From Pelolinea sp. (GTDB taxonomy: Bacteria; Chloroflexota; Anaerolineae; Anaerolineales; Anaerolineaceae), in NCBI GenBank assembly GCA_012797975.1, contig JAAZOD010000006.1, positions 1 through 59,846 on the forward strand: a stretch of DNA of 59,846 nt. Direction: 5' to 3'. Shown here in pieces: positions 34,240-40,596 of the stretch. The position numbers and the translations under genes were made by a program. Below the pieces are notes generated by a model. The model was not told the origin of the DNA. It ran no database searches and was given only the letters and a program-made list of their open reading frames with translations. How positions within the stretch are numbered: position 1 is the first letter of the stretch; every line of letters starts with the position of its first letter.

Positions 34240-34250
34240 GCTGAAAGAGT

Positions 34251-34352
34251 GCATCTTCGAGTCTCTTAATCTACGACGATGAATGTTATGGTTTTGAGAC
34301 CGTTAGGGTGTATGTGGAAACACATATGCCTCCCATGCTGGAAAGGAGATGA
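34251..34352 (+). ncRNA. Probable molybdenum-cofactor (Moco/Tuco) riboswitch aptamer
   Basis: P1 is CATCTTC (34252-34258) pairing with GGAGATG (34345-34351). An inner stem is GTCTC (34261-34265) with GAGAC (34296-34300). A long hairpin GGGTGTATGTG (34306-34316) is closed by a GAAA tetraloop and pairs with CACATATGCCT. Then comes CTCCCATGCTGGAAAGG. From memory, the Moco RNA leader of E. coli moaA has the same order: hairpin, GCCTCCC, a few bases, CTGGAAAGG, 3' strand of P1. This match plus the GNRA hairpin is the reason for the call (Rfam MOCO_RNA_motif). The ligand could also be the tungsten form. It controls the ECF operon starting at 34424. Confidence 0.78.
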
Positions 34353-34411
34353 CAGGGATAATTTTCTGAAGATATCCTGATCAGTAAACGCCTTTCCAGG
34401 GCGTTTTTTTT
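34338..34411 (+). terminator. Riboswitch expression platform: antiterminator and terminator
   Basis: The terminator AAACGCC (34386-34392) / GGCGTTT (34400-34406) plus eight T ends directly before the ribosome site GGAGAGG. CTGGAAAGG (34338-34346), part of which is the 3' strand of aptamer P1, is perfectly complementary to CCTTTCCAG (34391-34399) inside the terminator. The two pairings exclude each other. When ligand closes P1, the terminator forms and the operon is off. A small hairpin GGGATA/TATCCT lies between. This is a classical OFF switch. Confidence 0.88.
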
Positions 34412-34423
34412 ATGGAGAGGAAC

Positions 34424-35779
34424 ATGAAAAAGGGTTATTATTTCACCACCAAAGACTTACTCTTCATCGCAGGTTTTTCGGCAATCGGGGGATTAGCAAG
34501 CACCTATCTTAATATGCTGGGCGATTTCTTTCAATCTTTGCTGGGTTTTGCGGGAACGACCCAATGGGCGGCCGGGATCCATATCTTGTGGATATTGCTG
34601 GCGGTTGGTATCGTCAATAAACCCGGCACCGCGGTGCTTCTGGGGATTATAAAGGGGATCGTTGAATTATTGAGCGGAAACACCCATGGGGTTCTGGTTT
34701 TAATCGTGGATGTGGTGGCAGGCCTGATCGTGGAACTGGTGTTTTTGCTCCCGGTTCTCAGTAGATCTGTGAAAAATATCTTGGCCGGCGGGCTGGCGGC
34801 CATGTCGAATGTTTTTGTGTTCCAGATCTTCGCTTCTGTGCCCGCAGATAGTCTGGCGTTTTGGAGTATGCTGGCCGTGGCGGGCATCGCGTTGCTTTCC
34901 GGTGTTATCTTTGGCGGGTTGTTGAGCCAGGTGATTTTAAAGAATTTGGCAAAAACAGGGGTCATTTCACCGGAACTTGAGAAAAGCAAAACAAAGTGGG
35001 CAAAAACCGGTTTTGTATTGCTGGGCATTTTAATCTGCGCGGTAGCCGCTTTTGTTTACGTGCAAACTTCCAAAGGGGAGGGAGCGGTAACCATTTCAGG
35101 GAATGTAGCTGCGGAACAGAGCTTTGTCGTAGCAGATACCTCCATTACCCCCATCACCGTGGAATCCAGCTTGCAAGGGAAAACGGGAACCTATACTGGT
35201 TACCCCCTCCGGCAGATCATTGTCAATGCGCAACCGGGAGAAGGCGCTGATCTTGTTCTGGTCACTGCCACCGATGGGTATAGCTACTTCATCACCATGG
35301 ATGAAGTGAATTCCAATCCCAATCTTATCCTGGTAGTTAGCGGAGAGGGATCGGATGCCATATACAGCGTAGTGGGGGCGGAGAACAGCAAGGCCTGGGT
35401 CAGAGGGGTCGCGGAGGTGACGGTCATTCAAAGTATTCCGATCCCGATCTATTCTGGAGATCATCCAGTTGCGGAGTTCCATGCCCAGGACTGGCAATTT
35501 GAAATGGACAGCGTGCATTTTTCGCTGGAGGAAGGATCAAAAAAGTTACAGGGAGTGGCTGTTAACAAAGTCCTTGCCAGCATTGATAACGCTGCACCTT
35601 ATACGACAATACAATTTCTGAGCGCCGATGGTAGTTTCGATTGTGATCTGGCCAGCGTTCAAGCGGACGATTCCATTCGGATCTTTGTCAACATCGACGG
35701 ATATCAAATGAAATATCTGGTAGGAACAATCCAAGGAGAAGTTTTTCTGATGGATGTGGAGCGGATTGATTTGAAGTGA
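34424..35779 (+). CDS. YkoE-like ECF transporter S component fused to SUOX-like domains
   Basis: This 451-aa protein has residues 8-185 as a YkoE-type S component with about five or six membrane helices (segments VNKPGTAVLLGIIKG and ELLSGNTHGVLVL). Another membrane helix (196-214) leads to an extracytoplasmic part. That part looks like two sulfite-oxidase/molybdopterin-binding-fold (SUOX) modules at about 222-337 and 355-451, marked by GYPLRQII...TATDGYSYFITMDEV and GVAVNKVL. The Moco-ligating Cys is not seen. YkoE proteins usually capture thiamine or its precursor HMP. The fusion and the riboswitch suggest a different, pterin-like substrate here (inference). The ATG at 34424 is set by GGAGAGG. 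Confidence 0.85.
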   Translation: MKKGYYFTTKDLLFIAGFSAIGGLASTYLNMLGDFFQSLLGFAGTTQWAAGIHILWILLAVGIVNKPGTAVLLGIIKGIVELLSGNTHGVLVLIVDVVAGLIVELVFLLPVLSRSVKNILAGGLAAMSNVFVFQIFASVPADSLAFWSMLAVAGIALLSGVIFGGLLSQVILKNLAKTGVISPELEKSKTKWAKTGFVLLGILICAVAAFVYVQTSKGEGAVTISGNVAAEQSFVVADTSITPITVESSLQGKTGTYTGYPLRQIIVNAQPGEGADLVLVTATDGYSYFITMDEVNSNPNLILVVSGEGSDAIYSVVGAENSKAWVRGVAEVTVIQSIPIPIYSGDHPVAEFHAQDWQFEMDSVHFSLEEGSKKLQGVAVNKVLASIDNAAPYTTIQFLSADGSFDCDLASVQADDSIRIFVNIDGYQMKYLVGTIQGEVFLMDVERIDLK

Positions 35780-37251
35780 AGAAGATGGATATAGAAATTT
35801 CTCATCTATCCTATCGATTTCGAGAAAACGAGAAGCTGGTTCTGAATGATATTAATCTACACATTTCCAGCGGGGAATGGCTTTTATTGAGCGGTTGTTC
35901 GGGCAGTGGAAAAACCACTCTAGCGTATGCCATTGCCGGAATTCTTTATCATCAAAAAATAGGTGAATACCAAGGTCATGTGCGGTTTGGAAAGCAATGT
36001 GTTGAAGACATCCCTTTATACTGCGTTTCGGATGAAGTAGGACTGGTGCAACAAAATGCGGACGATCAATTCTGTACGTTGAATGTTGTTGAGGAAATTG
36101 CATTTGGATTGGAGAATCGTTGCATCCCTGAAGGTGAAATCAAAGAACGGATTGCGGATTCATTAAAGATCACCGGCACGGAGGCGCTGCATCAGCGCCC
36201 GCTCTTTGAACTTTCCGGGGGGGAAAAACAGAAAATTGCCATTGCCTCCATTCTGGCACTGCAGCCCTCTATTTTGATTCTGGACGAACCGACATCCAAT
36301 CTTGATTTGGAATCGACCCGCGCCATCTTTCAGTTGTTGCTGAAATTAAAAGAAACCCGGCAGCTTACAGTGATCATCATTGAACACAGGGTGGCTTTTT
36401 TCAAAAAACTTTTTCAACGTTGTATCCATCTTGAATCTGGAAAGATCGTTTATGACGGTACAATCGAAAAATCGCCCTATTTTTCAGCACATTTTGGACT
36501 TGGCTCAATGCTTCAAAGAACAGAGGTAAACAATAGTGGTCCAATTCTCTCTTTGCATGATTGGGCGTATGAGAACGGGGACGGCTTCCGATTGGAAGTT
36601 GAGGACCTGACTATCAATCAGGGGGAGATCATCGCACTGATGGGTGCCAATGGCTCCGGCAAAACAACCTTGTTGAAGACCATCCCTGGCTTGATAAAAG
36701 CAGGGCATGGATGGCTTGTTTTCAAAGGAAAAGAGCAGCCAAAAATTACCCCCCCTGAGGTTGGATTGGTGTTCCAAAATGCGGATGAACAACTTTTCAT
36801 GAATACGGTTCAAGAAGAAATTCATTACGGATTGAAGAATTTTAATTTGGACGATGCGATTCATGAAAAGAAAGCGTCTGATTTGCTTGATCTTTTTGGC
36901 TTGAACGAGAAACTGGCGAACAATCCTCACCAGCTCAGTTATGGGGAGAAGAAACGGCTTAATCTTATTACTACCCTTGTTTTTTCTCCCTCCATTCTGC
37001 TTTTGGATGAAATTTTCATTGGGCAGGATGCCTATCAGGTGAATTACATCATTGAAAAATTGATCTATCTGCGGAACGATGGCACATCCATTATTGTGGC
37101 TATCCATGACCCGGCATTACTGAAAAGAATGGCTGATCGCATTCTCTTTTTAGAGGATGGCAAAATGCGATTTAACCTTCCTTTGCAACAGGCGGTCATT
37201 TGGTGGCAGGTGAATGGGTACAGGGATTATCTGCCGGAGATGGGGTTATGA
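35776..37251 (+). CDS. ECF transporter ATPase, two fused domains (EcfA-EcfA', YkoD-like)
   Basis: This 491-aa protein contains two ABC ATPase domains. The first has Walker A SGCSGSGKTT (about 39-48), signature LSGGEKQK and Walker B ILILDEPTSNLD. The second has GANGSGKT (290-297), signature LSYGEKKR and Walker B ILLLDEIF. Both P-loops are intact. GTG 35776 overlaps the S-component stop, and ATG 35785 is an alternative start. Fusion of both ATPases in one chain matches the YkoEDC arrangement and gives a dedicated (group I) ECF importer, with S, A and T genes adjacent. Confidence 0.95.
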   Translation: MKKMDIEISHLSYRFRENEKLVLNDINLHISSGEWLLLSGCSGSGKTTLAYAIAGILYHQKIGEYQGHVRFGKQCVEDIPLYCVSDEVGLVQQNADDQFCTLNVVEEIAFGLENRCIPEGEIKERIADSLKITGTEALHQRPLFELSGGEKQKIAIASILALQPSILILDEPTSNLDLESTRAIFQLLLKLKETRQLTVIIIEHRVAFFKKLFQRCIHLESGKIVYDGTIEKSPYFSAHFGLGSMLQRTEVNNSGPILSLHDWAYENGDGFRLEVEDLTINQGEIIALMGANGSGKTTLLKTIPGLIKAGHGWLVFKGKEQPKITPPEVGLVFQNADEQLFMNTVQEEIHYGLKNFNLDDAIHEKKASDLLDLFGLNEKLANNPHQLSYGEKKRLNLITTLVFSPSILLLDEIFIGQDAYQVNYIIEKLIYLRNDGTSIIVAIHDPALLKRMADRILFLEDGKMRFNLPLQQAVIWWQVNGYRDYLPEMGL

Positions 37252-38018
37252 GAAAGATCGCTTATTTCCCGGCTGACACAATGATGCACACCCTGCACCC
37301 ATTCACAAAGTTTTTCTTTCTTTTGAGCATCAGCGTTCTGGTTTTTTTTATAGAGTCTCCCTATTTAATGCTGTTCTTTTTCGGCCTCTTGTTTGGTGCA
37401 TTTTTATCTATCTGTAGAAATCCTTTTCGGTACTTTGGCATGCGCACGACCTTTCTCACTGCTCTTGCCATTGCGGTAATTCAATGCCTTTTTTCGAAAC
37501 AGGGAAAGGAAATAACGAATCTGTTCGGATTGTCGATTACCGCTATCGGTCTGCAACGCGCGATTCTGATCTCCCTGCGGTTTCTGATCATTATTCTGGG
37601 CAGTTATTTGTTCATCTTGACAACCTCGCCTTCCGATTTTACGTTTGCTTTCATGCAGCTGGGGGTGCCGTATCGCTATGCGTTCATGATCGTCACTGCT
37701 ATGCGGCTGGTTCCGATTTTCTCGATTGAAGGGGAGCGCATCAATTTTGCTCAGCGGTTGCGTGGAGCGCAATATGATGTTCGCAAACCACGCGAGTTAT
37801 TTTTTCACATGAGCGCTTTTCTTGGCGCAATTTTATATTCCTTGGTGGATCGGGTGAACAAATTGGCGGTTTCAATGGAGGGGAGAAGTTTCGGAAGATA
37901 TTCGATACGGACTTATCAAAAGCGTCTTTCTTTTACATTTCGAGATGGAATACTTTTAGGTTCATTAGGGTTAGCAATTCTTTTATTTTCTTATCTGAAT
38001 TGGAGAGGAATTCTATGA
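37248..38018 (+). CDS. ECF transporter transmembrane component EcfT (YkoC-like)
   Basis: This 256-aa protein has an N-terminal HPFTKFFFLLSISVLVFF and about five membrane helices. The coupling-helix region includes AMRLVPIFSIEGERINFAQ and LRGAQYDV and fits the EcfT ATPase-contact region. The ATG at 37248 overlaps the ATPase stop by ATGA. EcfT joins the S component to the ATPases. Confidence 0.93.
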   Translation: MRKIAYFPADTMMHTLHPFTKFFFLLSISVLVFFIESPYLMLFFFGLLFGAFLSICRNPFRYFGMRTTFLTALAIAVIQCLFSKQGKEITNLFGLSITAIGLQRAILISLRFLIIILGSYLFILTTSPSDFTFAFMQLGVPYRYAFMIVTAMRLVPIFSIEGERINFAQRLRGAQYDVRKPRELFFHMSAFLGAILYSLVDRVNKLAVSMEGRSFGRYSIRTYQKRLSFTFRDGILLGSLGLAILLFSYLNWRGIL

Positions 38019-38944
38019 AGTCAGCGAAAACAAGAAAAATAATCAGGATTGTCGCCATCATTGTTGCAGTGATGGCCTTGGTTGCGCTTATTTTTTATCT
38101 TTCTCTGAAACAGCTTCCTGTTCGGGTATTGACCGAATATTCCTTTGATACATTGTGGGAAGAAGGTACAACCATGCATGATTGTGCGGAATGTCATGAC
38201 ACAAAGGAAGAGTTTCATACCTGCAGCACCTGCCATGATGAGCATGGTTCCGTGGAACTACCAAACTTGTCTTTTTACAATATGATCGAACTGACGGGGG
38301 ATGTGAAAGAAGTGACCTTCATCCCTTGGAATCACTTTTTCAACAGCTATTCCGCTCTTCCGAATACGTTCATCACCGTGGATGAATTCATGACCAAATG
38401 GGAGATCTCGGATTATGAAAGCATCACCCTCTACACACGCGATGGGGAATTTGTCACCATCAACAAGAGTGACATCACAACTAATGCCATGTTCTTGCCA
38501 TATGAAGATGGGATCCGCTTTGCATCCGATGACTTGCACGAGTCGACTTGGGCAAAAGGGATCGCAAAGATCATTATCGTGGGAAAGGAAAAACCACTGC
38601 AAATTGGGGATGAATCGACATCCATCGGAAGATTATTGTTGGGGAAGACAACTTCCATCTCAATTGAAGAAGCGAAGGTGATGTTCCGCAATGAGGAAGA
38701 TGGAGTGACCCGTGAAGCATTTACTTCGGGCAGGGTGGAAGGAGTTGCCATGGATGACCTGCTTGATTTGGATCGGTATCAGGATATCGCTTTTACCTTG
38801 CAGAATGGAGAGAAGGTGGTATTGCCAGTTGATACGGTACGCGAGGCAGTGCTGACCAAACAAAATGCTTCCGTGGTTCTGGTAATTCCGGATCAGGGGC
38901 GCAGCGACTGGGTGTTCGATATTGTACGTGTGGAAGGGAATTGA
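38015..38944 (+). CDS. Membrane-anchored CxxCH protein with two SUOX-like modules
   Basis: This 309-aa protein has an N-terminal anchor (about 9-30), then two CxxCH motifs (CAECH 57-61, CSTCH 70-74), so it is probably a diheme or zinc-type extracytoplasmic segment. Two modules follow (about 85-195 and 200-309) with the pattern LPNTFITVDEFMTKW, TLYTRDGEFVTI and GVAMDDLLDL, LQNGEKVVLPVDTV. This is the short molybdopterin-binding/SUOX-like fold repeated elsewhere in this operon. The ATG is coupled to ecfT by ATGA with GGAGAGG upstream. It may bind or redox-prime the imported cofactor at the surface; no family function is established. Confidence 0.75.
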   Translation: MKSAKTRKIIRIVAIIVAVMALVALIFYLSLKQLPVRVLTEYSFDTLWEEGTTMHDCAECHDTKEEFHTCSTCHDEHGSVELPNLSFYNMIELTGDVKEVTFIPWNHFFNSYSALPNTFITVDEFMTKWEISDYESITLYTRDGEFVTINKSDITTNAMFLPYEDGIRFASDDLHESTWAKGIAKIIIVGKEKPLQIGDESTSIGRLLLGKTTSISIEEAKVMFRNEEDGVTREAFTSGRVEGVAMDDLLDLDRYQDIAFTLQNGEKVVLPVDTVREAVLTKQNASVVLVIPDQGRSDWVFDIVRVEGN

Positions 38945-38946
38945 TC

Positions 38947-40083
38947 ATGAAACGTTTTTTCAATGTGGTTCTTTTCATTGGAATCATACTGGGATTAAGC
39001 GCGTGCTCGCAAGCCAGTCAGGATCTGGTCTTTTCCATCGATGGGCAGGAGAACGTTGTGACAAAACAGACCTTCCAAGAAATTGAGAAACAGGTCAATG
39101 TGGATGAAGAAAAAGATTACGATCTTTCACTGGAATATCTATTTTATAAATATGGTGTAAAAGCGGTGGATGAGATCAACATTGTTCAAGGGGATACCAC
39201 GACAACATTTCCATGGAGTGAAGTTGCTGACGCGGCTTATTGGCGTAATGTAAGAGAAGTAGAAATAAATGGGAAGGAATATCTTGCCGATAAGATCCTG
39301 ATAAGCTGTAGTGAACTTGAAATGCCTGTTGCCTATTCCGTTACAGACATTGCGCCTATATCGGCGGCGGCACTGGGAATACCTTTTGGAAATGAACCGT
39401 TGCCAGATCTCCCGTACAGTTCGGCAGGCCATGTGGTATGGTTTTTTCTGGACGGGTTTGGGTATGAGGGATTCCAATATGCAAAGCAAGCGGGGTTAAT
39501 TCCCAATCTCTCGACGATTGGCCAATTCTATCCATCCTATACGGTCTATCCGTCAAAAACAAGTGTGGTGACGGCTGCATTGCTTTCTGGGCTTGATTCT
39601 CAGCAAAACGGTGTATGGGCGAGCGGCATTCGCAATCTCACAGTTCCCAGCATCATCGAAACATTGGTTGATGCAGGGAAAAAGGTGACGGTCATTGAAG
39701 GAAGCAGTACCCCTTTCAATTATCCCGATGCGGAGATCATCCTTTCTGGAGATCGGAATGGGGATGGTTCGACCGATGACAACGTTGCCGCTAATGCCCA
39801 GGAATTTATTGCCATGGGAATACCGGACCTGCTCATGATCCATTTTCATGGCGTTGATGATGTGGGGCATACCTATGGGCCGTATACGCCGGAATGGAGA
39901 GCGAAGGTTGCAGAAGTGGATGCGATGGTGGCGGAACTTATTATGAAATTGCCTGAAAACACATTGATTTTTATCTTCCCGGATCATGGCATGCATGCAA
40001 TTAACGAAGATTCCGAATTGGGAAATCATGGGAATCTTCTTTTGGAGGATATGGCAACCTATATCATCCTGTTTCAAAAATAG
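38947..40083 (+). CDS. Lipoprotein with SUOX-like domain and nucleotide pyrophosphatase/phosphodiesterase domain
   Basis: This 378-aa protein has a lipoprotein signal with lipobox GLSAC (Cys20). Residues about 25-125 form a SUOX-like module. Residues about 155-378 are a type I phosphodiesterase of the alkaline phosphatase superfamily. The metal and nucleophile pieces are DGFG (about 168), the Thr in YPSKTSVVTA (about 203), HGVDDVGHTYGP (about 301-312), PDHGM (about 345) and GNHGN (about 360). Such enzymes split phosphodiester or pyrophosphate bonds of nucleotides. In this Moco-regulated operon it may cleave molybdopterin dinucleotides outside the cell to release the importable form (inference). 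It starts 2 bases after the previous stop. Confidence 0.85.
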   Translation: MKRFFNVVLFIGIILGLSACSQASQDLVFSIDGQENVVTKQTFQEIEKQVNVDEEKDYDLSLEYLFYKYGVKAVDEINIVQGDTTTTFPWSEVADAAYWRNVREVEINGKEYLADKILISCSELEMPVAYSVTDIAPISAAALGIPFGNEPLPDLPYSSAGHVVWFFLDGFGYEGFQYAKQAGLIPNLSTIGQFYPSYTVYPSKTSVVTAALLSGLDSQQNGVWASGIRNLTVPSIIETLVDAGKKVTVIEGSSTPFNYPDAEIILSGDRNGDGSTDDNVAANAQEFIAMGIPDLLMIHFHGVDDVGHTYGPYTPEWRAKVAEVDAMVAELIMKLPENTLIFIFPDHGMHAINEDSELGNHGNLLLEDMATYIILFQK

Positions 40084-40116
40084 GTAGTTCGAAAGCCAAA
40101 ATTGAAAGGAGAAAAT

Positions 40117-40596
40117 ATGACAAAGAAAAATACTGCACTTCTTACCGTTGTATTCTTGATGGCTTTCTTGGTTGGTTGTGGTCCCAAAGCCCCAGACGTG
40201 GATTGGACGTTGAAGATTTCTGGGGATGTAACGACCCCGTTGGATTTATCCTTTGCAGATCTGGCAGCGATGGATCAGATCGAACTGAATGATATTCTGA
40301 TGGAAAAATCAACCGGGGAGGATGTGGTCACCTCGTGGTCGGGTGTTTCATTGGATGCAATCCTTACCAAAGCCGGCGCACCTGCTGACTTCATCTCGAT
40401 CACCGCGATTGCTTCTGATGGCTATTCCATTGAGATTACCAAAGAAGAATTGACGGGTGGCATAATCGCCTTAAAAGACAGTGGTGAGTGGATCGTGGAA
40501 GTCTCCCCTGATAAGGGGCCCATCCGCTTGGTTACCCCATCGACACCTGCCAATCGCTGGGTTTATTCCATCACAGAAATTCAGGTCAATCAATAA
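40117..40596 (+). CDS. SUOX-like (molybdopterin-binding fold) lipoprotein
   Basis: This 159-aa protein has a lipoprotein signal with lipobox FLVGC (Cys21). The single short domain shows the family line clearly: DWTLKISGDV, LSFADLAAMDQIEL, SWSGVSLDAILTKAGAP, AIASDGYSIEITKEEL, GPIRLVTPS and VYSITEIQV. It lacks the Cys that binds Mo in true sulfite oxidases, so a ligand-binding rather than catalytic role is more likely. AAAGGAG precedes the ATG. It is the last gene of the operon, closed by the hairpin at 40630. Confidence 0.85.
   Translation: MTKKNTALLTVVFLMAFLVGCGPKAPDVDWTLKISGDVTTPLDLSFADLAAMDQIELNDILMEKSTGEDVVTSWSGVSLDAILTKAGAPADFISITAIASDGYSIEITKEELTGGIIALKDSGEWIVEVSPDKGPIRLVTPSTPANRWVYSITEIQVNQ

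Follow-up and report, generated by a model that had tools for sequence, protein, structure and literature searches.

The usual view is that every cell in need of a molybdenum or tungsten cofactor makes its own, and one operon in the window (the whole stretch of 59,846 nucleotides analysed here) raises the question of whether some bacteria might take such a cofactor up from outside. The operon consists of six tightly coupled genes at positions 34424-40596, all on the + strand and downstream of an RF01055 riboswitch, and a candidate of this size makes the question of cofactor uptake directly testable. An earlier note had read it as an importer that captures the molybdenum cofactor (Moco) at the surface, cleaves its dinucleotide form and is controlled by feedback. 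We consider it likely that the operon encodes a group I ECF importer that salvages a pyranopterin metal cofactor from the surroundings, and that the tungsten cofactor (Tuco) is its most probable cargo.

The first gene (34424-35779) encodes an ECF S component, in which a YkoE-type membrane domain is joined to SUOX/PruR-type domains (PF09819, 1.6e-15). Three genes follow, each overlapping its predecessor by 4 bases: the fused double ABC ATPase EcfA-A', whose A and A' parts form a single gene (35776-37251; PF00005 in two stretches, 5.7e-52), the T component of CbiQ type (37248-38018; PF02361, 7.6e-26), and a protein anchored in the membrane that combines a SUOX/PruR-type domain with two CxxCH motifs (38015-38944), for which the Pfam search gave no family above the cut-off. 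After a gap of 2 comes a phosphodiesterase lipoprotein of the NPP/alkaline phosphatase superfamily (38947-40083; PF01663, 2.2e-21), and after a gap of 33 a Cys-less SUOX/PruR-type lipoprotein, a candidate for pterin capture (40117-40596; PF00174, 4.9e-13). The gene calls and spacing thus match the earlier description of six coupled genes with overlaps of 4 or gaps of at most 33. For the phosphodiesterase gene, an alternative TTG start upstream would give an overlap of 4. The presence of S, T, and ATPase parts in one operon identifies the system as group I among ECF transporters. Four of the related operons (L060, L065, L075, and L078) contain an additional Fe-S/CCG gene (Fer4 and CCG). A gene for an aldehyde oxidoreductase (AOR) within the operon had been suspected from a gene of ~640-700 aa between the T and CxxCH genes, and was rejected when Pfam assigned Fer4 and CCG to it.

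The S protein comprises the YkoE-type domain at residues ~6-188, a SUOX/PruR-type domain at ~215-340 and, judging from a model (pLDDT 85) in which the strand/helix pattern is repeated, what appears to be a second, similar-looking domain of this type at ~345-451. YkoE (5edl) is both its only solved relative found by sequence (1.6e-15) and its best match by fold (Z 20.1, with 179 residues of the stretch 6-188 aligned at an rmsd of 3.4). Model residues 220-335 superimpose on PruR 7rkb with a Z of 14.1, and residues 221-450 give a profile match to the family of the last lipoprotein of the operon, some of whose members have two domains. The profile of the first SUOX-type domain alone retrieved no relevant solved relative by sequence, so that its fold match comes from the model only. 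No Cys column reaches 50% in the S family, and the Mo-ligating Cys of the sulfite oxidase enzymes is therefore missing. The thiamine-contacting residues of YkoE are W49, E77, Q95, D131, and Y46 (PMC5037267). Four of these five are replaced in the S protein (W49 to H, Y46 to A, Q95 to A, and D131 to Q) and only E77 is kept; a pocket identical to that of thiamine/HMP-binding YkoE proteins, which the earlier note had named as grounds for abandoning its reading, is thus not found. Among 32 sequences, conservation at the YkoE pocket positions is 32 for E77, H53, and Q134, and 31 for A50 and A99. The pocket has probably been remodelled and is probably larger than that of YkoE.

The last lipoprotein matches PruR 7kos by sequence, its D101-G102-Y103 being aligned with the N-D-Y of PruR, and these three residues are invariant in 16 sequences, in keeping with the N/D-x-Y motif of pterin contact. 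W148, a possible counterpart of the pterin-contacting Trp160 of PruR, is also invariant and lies beyond the printed alignment. The lipobox Cys is the sole conserved Cys of the family, there being no Mo-ligating one, and the protein fits the description of PruR as a small secreted SUOX-type fold without that ligand. PruR is a periplasmic pterin binder; according to a review of it (PMC13259868), its pocket is likely too small for the larger Moco, which speaks against a cargo of this kind. The CxxCH protein model resembles PruR as well (residues 187-309 versus 7kou, Z 11.6). A molybdopterin-type fold had been claimed for four of the six products; it holds for the S and CxxCH proteins by their models and for the last lipoprotein by Pfam, and the N-terminus of the phosphodiesterase gives only a weak profile match (hhalign probability 75%).

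The CxxCH protein was found by tblastn in 20 of the 21 loci that extend far enough beyond the T gene, and among its homologues the Cys pair of one motif is kept in 21/21 and that of the other in 16/21. Cytochrome c assembly genes (PF01578) are present in 29 of the 34 genomes bearing the operon, G000 included; together with the CxxCH motifs, they make the protein a candidate c-type haem protein as far as sequence can indicate. In the phosphodiesterase, D169, T205, D304, H308, D346, H347, and H361 are invariant in 15 sequences, and we take them to be the catalytic Thr and the metal ligands of the superfamily active site. Its best solved relative is 2gsn (2.6e-12), and tblastn did not find it in four of the 21 long-enough loci. 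The proposed cleavage of a dinucleotide form is not supported as stated, because PF01568, the domain of MGD-type enzymes, occurs in only 15 of the 34 bearers.

The riboswitch aptamer (34243-34364, + strand) scores 67.6 bits in cmscan (E 3.8e-14), compared to a curated RF01055 cut-off of 36 bits. Its P3 stem is absent: the P3 columns are deleted in the alignment and the linker reads CC-GTT-AGGG. Downstream lies an intrinsic terminator (34386-34406, + strand) with a 9-pair stem and a U tail, whose 5' half (CCTTTCC) is complementary to GGAAAGG of the aptamer; the alternative pairing of the aptamer 3' CUGGAAAGG with this half covers 9 bases. Complementarity of at least 7 bases between aptamer and terminator is seen in 18 of 29 leaders (shuffles: mean 1.9, maximum 8). 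Folding of the full 70-base expression platform does not stand out from that of shuffles (z -0.84), although the hairpin in it is well defined. The terminator and the alternative pairing make an OFF switch, as proposed earlier, plausible. RF01055 lies upstream of the operon in 32 of the 34 Chloroflexota bearers, and the association therefore exceeds chance; for L062 and L066, relaxing the threshold still brought up no RF01055. Moco riboswitches are also absent from the loci of eight distant relatives (Bipolaricaulota, Phycisphaerae, and Fermentithermobacillaceae), and our claim is therefore restricted to the Chloroflexota bearers. In eight bearer genomes, SUOX-type proteins encoded elsewhere sit behind Moco riboswitches of their own.

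The survey of operon against lost biosynthesis that the earlier note had suggested was carried out on these 34 genomes, and on a class sample of 14 bearers and 235 others. Both moaA and moaC are missing in 21 of the 34 bearers; the remaining 13, among them the genome of the window, retain both, which counts against the salvage reading. In the class sample the two genes are missing in 9/14 bearers versus 20/235 others (Fisher P 1.5e-6, family-stratified P 0.0013), where G219 is counted as a bearer though only S residues 158-451 were found in it, and the count without it is 8/13. When the moa state is mapped on a tree of 32 importers, a minimum of 10 changes is needed. AOR genes, encoding tungsten-type aldehyde oxidoreductases, occur in 33 of the 34 bearers (G260 being the one without a detected AOR) and in 20 of the 21 moa-less ones; they are also present in all 15 moaA-positive non-bearers tested, and are therefore common in this class. 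PF00384 was dropped as a marker of Moco enzymes since it also matches NuoG-type subunits, and the only match in G000 is such a protein (PF10588, Fer2_4). AOR or PF01568 proteins occur in 17 of 20 moa-less non-bearers, so that either the importer is not the sole answer to missing moa genes or the losses are partly artefactual; some of them may be assembly gaps or missed genes.

The riboswitch, pocket, and moa-loss evidence agree in supporting cofactor salvage by ECF import with cofactor feedback, as the earlier note had it. As to the cargo, a pterin metal cofactor is still the preferred candidate, and the more likely metal shifts from molybdenum to tungsten, because P3 is absent in 29 of the 32 aptamers read, that of the window included (the other three have extra sequence at this position), and 33/34 bearers have AOR. 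The tungsten reading leans on a published correlation between the absence of P3 from these RNAs and the use of the tungsten cofactor (PMC2408646). The cargo is probably already metalated, as suggested by MoeA: among genomes without moa, just 4 of the 21 bearers have it, versus 13 of the 20 non-bearers. Import of an unmetalated precursor (molybdopterin or cPMP) by the same transporter and its completion inside the cell is an unlikely alternative: it would serve bearers without moaA and moaC equally well and suits the four that keep moeA, but no MoeA was detected in the other 17. The lack of MoaE in all 21 speaks weakly against it and is in itself uninformative, since 11 of the 13 moa-positive bearers lack it too.

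ECF systems having an S component are importers, which makes it rather improbable that the operon exports pterin or, as a surface-assembly system, loads it onto SUOX/PruR-type and haem proteins outside the cytoplasm, with a redox or signalling function. The frequent CxxCH protein, the cytochrome c assembly genes and the Fe-S/CCG gene inside four operons would suit this reading, which however leaves the loss of moaA and moaC unexplained. An ECF-type importer of tungstate or molybdate is very unlikely. Moco riboswitches control molybdate transporters (PMC2408646), and several in this class precede ABC transporter genes; however, the binding domains of the operon look like pterin binders, and without moa genes, and without detected MoeA in most moa-less bearers, a bare oxyanion would be useless. 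That the operon imports thiamine/HMP in the manner of YkoEDC is, despite the kinship with YkoE, scarcely credible given the replaced contacts and RF01055 in place of a TPP riboswitch. In neither the window nor the 38 loci scanned did a TPP riboswitch reach the gathering score; the TPP control of homologous operons that the earlier note had named as refuting its own reading was not seen.

For the cofactor importer that we prefer, the following steps can be proposed. The Cys-less SUOX/PruR-fold surface lipoproteins and domains would bind the pterin part, the phosphodiesterase would perhaps trim a phosphoester-bearing form of the cofactor, and the haem-type CxxCH protein would perhaps keep the pterin reduced. 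The YkoE-like S component, with its remodelled pocket, would accept the cofactor and the ATPase/T module would drive it inward, where it would load aldehyde oxidoreductases. When internal cofactor is plentiful, the P3-less riboswitch would stop the operon by transcription termination. The most complete version, in which anaerobic Chloroflexota without moaA, moaC, and mostly moeA live on the finished tungsten cofactor of their neighbours by means of PruR-type capture, a surface haem chain that keeps it reduced, an ECF pump, and a tungsten-cofactor riboswitch, is put forward tentatively, at somewhat below even chances. If true, a new cargo class would be added to those of ECF transporters, capture would become a function of the Cys-less sulfite-oxidase fold, members of anaerobic communities could share the tungsten/molybdenum cofactor, and there would be cofactor auxotrophs that lists of enzyme genes miss.

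No Moco/Tuco importer of this kind was found in the portions of the open-licence PubMed Central literature covered, in line with the earlier note, whose author knew of none described. Caenorhabditis elegans takes up dietary mature Moco by a membrane transport mechanism described as unknown in an excerpt of PMC9793310; it shares with our proposal a mature cofactor from outside, and is an animal rather than a bacterium with an ECF system. Compared to known RF01055 regulons, the aptamer, its P3-less subtype and feedback on cofactor genes are common to both, whereas the targets published so far comprise genes for biosynthesis, for molybdate transport and for enzymes using the cofactor, with no Moco/Tuco uptake system named in the excerpts of PMC2408646 and PMC3766115; here, the target is an importer operon. 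The NPP family member 2GSN shares the invariant superfamily active-site residues with the phosphodiesterase, which differs in being a lipoprotein encoded in a cofactor operon. PruR (7KOS, 7RKB) has the Cys-less SUOX-type fold, secretion, and the N/D-x-Y motif in common with the domains described here, but stands by itself with a DcpA-type regulator as its partner, whereas they are part of an importer operon headed by a cofactor riboswitch; no DcpA/DTB-type partner domain was seen among the six proteins of the operon. YkoEDC, the group I ECF thiamine/HMP transporter, likewise combines the S fold, a CbiQ-type T component, and a double ATPase in one operon; unlike it, the present system carries SUOX/PruR-type domains and replaced pocket residues in its S component, a Moco/Tuco riboswitch, and three extra surface proteins.

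Import of a tungsten or molybdenum pterin cofactor by the six-gene operon, and binding of the pterin by its domains, are predicted from sequence. The six open reading frames occupy 34424-40596 on the forward strand; each of the first three junctions is a 4-base overlap, and the fourth and fifth are gaps of 2 and 33 bases. They encode an S protein (PF09819), a single A-A' chain with two PF00005 stretches, a T component (PF02361), a CxxCH protein with no Pfam family above the cut-off, a phosphodiesterase (PF01663), and a last lipoprotein (PF00174). The operon is real and arranged as in the earlier note, and a match to RF01055, the Moco/Tuco riboswitch, lies upstream. In the window it is flanked by genes for an ATP-type PEP carboxykinase (PF01293; 32673-34238) and a RelA/SpoT-type protein (PF04607; 40665-42935), both on the reverse strand.

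The RF01055 aptamer lies at 34243-34364 on the forward strand (67.6 bits), and a terminator-like hairpin is located 3' of it at 34386-34406. The aptamer 3' end, CUGGAAAGG, could form a 9-base pairing with the terminator 5' half. The cofactor-bound aptamer would hold its 3' end and leave the terminator free to form, and for this reason the switch logic appears to be OFF. A terminator-like hairpin is present in 19 of 29 leaders examined, and a complementary stretch of 7 or more bases in 18 of 29 (shuffles: mean 1.9, maximum 8); the full 70-base platform folds no better than shuffles.

A search of 249 genomes of the class with the S protein, which combines YkoE-type and SUOX/PruR-type domains, found 13 full-length proteins and one partial protein (G219). 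The GTDB species collection, scanned with an alignment of these 13 proteins, yielded 40 loci, of which 32 are full-length and all from Chloroflexota (one Chloroflexia, most Anaerolineae or lower groups), while the other 8 are partial, more distant, and belong to other phyla. Since 12 of the 32 are judged to be class-sample contigs again, 34 bearers of the importer are known (14 from the class sample and 20 further). RF01055 lies upstream on the same strand in 14/14 class-sample bearers, mostly less than 200 bases from the gene (328 in G091 and about 530 in G059), and in 18/20 further bearers (none upstream in L062 and L066); none was found in any of the 8 distant loci. Related operons with SUOX-type sequence in S, ATPase and/or T genes, and no Moco riboswitch were seen in L081 and in four Bipolaricaulota genomes (L083, L084, L085, and L088), in which moaA was not found. 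Two class genomes have unusually many Moco riboswitches, G053 (9 matches) and G126 (7 matches).

MoaA (PF06463) was detected in 209 of the 249 class genomes and 8 of the 20 further bearers. Most of the genomes are drafts, and those 20 come with no completeness figures. MoaC (PF01967) was sought in 80 genomes, namely the 34 bearers, 31 moaA-less non-bearers, and 15 moaA-positive non-bearers. The two proteins are concordant in all 34 bearers (13 have both and 21 have neither), and MoaC is present in 11 of the 31 moaA-less non-bearers, where the lack of MoaA is therefore probably a gap. Both are missing from 9/14 bearers in the class sample compared to 20/235 others (P 1.5e-6), and the association gives P 0.0013 when only within-family differences are used. 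One inherited loss does not account for it, because a quick tree of 32 importers requires 10 or more changes of moa state. Against the salvage reading, 13 bearers still carry moaA and moaC. The Pelolinea genome itself (G000) retains MoaA, MoaC, and MoeA genes on a contig other than that of the window, and thus the importer would be a supplement there. MoaE was not detected in several class genomes with MoaA, MoaC, and the tungsten-type aldehyde oxidoreductase AOR (G000, G036, G068, G095, G115, G182, and others), in which molybdopterin synthase may be unusual. Four other genomes (G038, G070, G136, and G216; family f39, genus g45; 94-98% completeness) contain PF00384 proteins with an in-frame TGA, PF01568, and MoeA; MoaA, MoaC, and an ECF system of this kind were not detected in them.

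The AOR family (PF01314) is present in 33/34 bearers, none being found in G260, and in 20/21 of those lacking moa genes. AOR is known to carry a tungsten bis-pyranopterin that has no nucleotide and whose metal has no ligand from the protein. PF01568, a domain of MGD-type molybdenum enzymes, occurs in 15/34 bearers, and 18 bearers, including G000 with 3 AOR matches, have AOR without it. PF00384 was dropped as evidence because it also matches NuoG-like subunits, as in G000. MoeA is present in 4/21 moa-less bearers, 13/20 moa-less non-bearers, and 12/13 moa-positive bearers. Metal insertion is not expected in a cell without MoeA, so the rarity of MoeA in moa-less bearers favours the finished cofactor as the cargo. 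AOR is not special to bearers, since all 15 moaA-positive non-bearers tested have it. Moreover, 17/20 moa-less non-bearers have AOR or PF01568 (AOR in 9, PF01568 in 15), so there must be other routes of salvage, undetected enzymes, or gaps.

The absence of P3 is the published mark of tungsten-cofactor sensing; the figures taken from Regulski et al. (2008, PMC2408646) are 58 of 176 Moco RNAs without P3 and tungsten-cofactor genes in 17 of 19 organisms having such RNAs. Read by eye, P3 is absent from 29/32 operon leaders; those of L053 and L060 have extra sequence at the P3 site in which a stem is possible, and that of L071 has a repeat insertion, also hairpin-capable. Aptamers shorter than 130 bases make up 12/14 of those upstream of S in the class sample, compared to 38/98 others among the matches listed (P 0.001).

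The targets that could be named behind 45 other riboswitches of the class, in 40 regions, include moaA/moaC/moeA genes, SUOX-type proteins, an AOR gene (in L122), and ABC transporter genes. The last resemble the permease and binding protein adjoining the moa cluster of G000 (PF00528 and PF13531). In a sample of genomes, SUOX-type proteins stand behind separate Moco riboswitches in eight genomes (G000, G100, G043, G075, G134, G007, G091, and G235), all of them bearers; in G007 the gene is third, after transporter-like genes. The second riboswitch of G000 (G000:C11:44830-44949, reverse strand) is P3-less and precedes a lone 150-aa lipoprotein (L048 4271-4723, reverse strand) similar (7e-10) to P0006, the Cys-less SUOX-type lipoprotein ending the operon. 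Its SUOX-like part contains no other Cys, and Pfam at 1e-5 names nothing in it.

Operon variation was counted by tblastn in 21 loci extending at least 1800 bases past the T gene. The CxxCH protein is present in 20 (missing from L079), the phosphodiesterase in 17 (missing from L055, L065, L070, and L079), and the P0006-family lipoprotein in 16, on the opposite strand in two. Four operons have an extra protein of ~640-700 aa with 4Fe-4S and CCG domains between the T and CxxCH genes (L060 8942-10870, L065 9289-11217, L075 9929-12043, and L078 11716-13611); their CxxCH proteins have one CxxCH motif, not two, as does that of L070, which has no Fe-S/CCG gene. Cytochrome c assembly (PF01578) was detected in 29/34 bearers, including G000. 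A surface redox step keeping the pterin reduced would be a guess fitting these parts. Immediately 5' of the riboswitch, one clade (L057, L058, L063, L064, L067, L072, and L076) has two conserved, very large ORFs of about 1650-1680 and 880-890 aa.

The S protein model (pLDDT 85) matches YkoE over residues 6-188 (Z 20.1) and, at about 215-340, PruR (7rkb, Z 14.1) and sulfite oxidase (2blf, Z 14.9). A second SUOX/PruR-type fold probably follows up to residue 451, where the same secondary-structure pattern repeats and structure-match rows hardly cover the chain. In the CxxCH protein, residues 187-309 match PruR (Z 11.6). PMC13259868 describes PruR as a pterin-binding protein of the periplasm whose sulfite-oxidase fold lacks the Mo-ligating Cys, and the contacts named there are Tyr104 and Trp160, with Asn or Asp at position 102. 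D101 and Y103 of P0006 align with positions 102 and 104 and are invariant in its family, as is W148, a candidate counterpart of Trp160. The same review considers Moco likely too large for the PruR pocket, which speaks against simple capture by one domain.

Full-text searches of open-licence PMC papers turned up no Moco, Tuco, or molybdopterin importer. The functional categories of a riboswitch regulon survey covering five Chloroflexi genomes among others (PMC3766115) include Mo/W transporters and Moco biosynthesis, and Moco uptake is not one of them. Compared to YkoE, the S component of a thiamine/HMP transporter, the S pocket retains only E77 and is changed at W49, Y46, Q95, and D131; the Y-to-A and Q-to-A replacements would enlarge it. 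The system is classed here with a known kind of importer, the group I ECF transporters; its predicted cargo and its attached domains are new.
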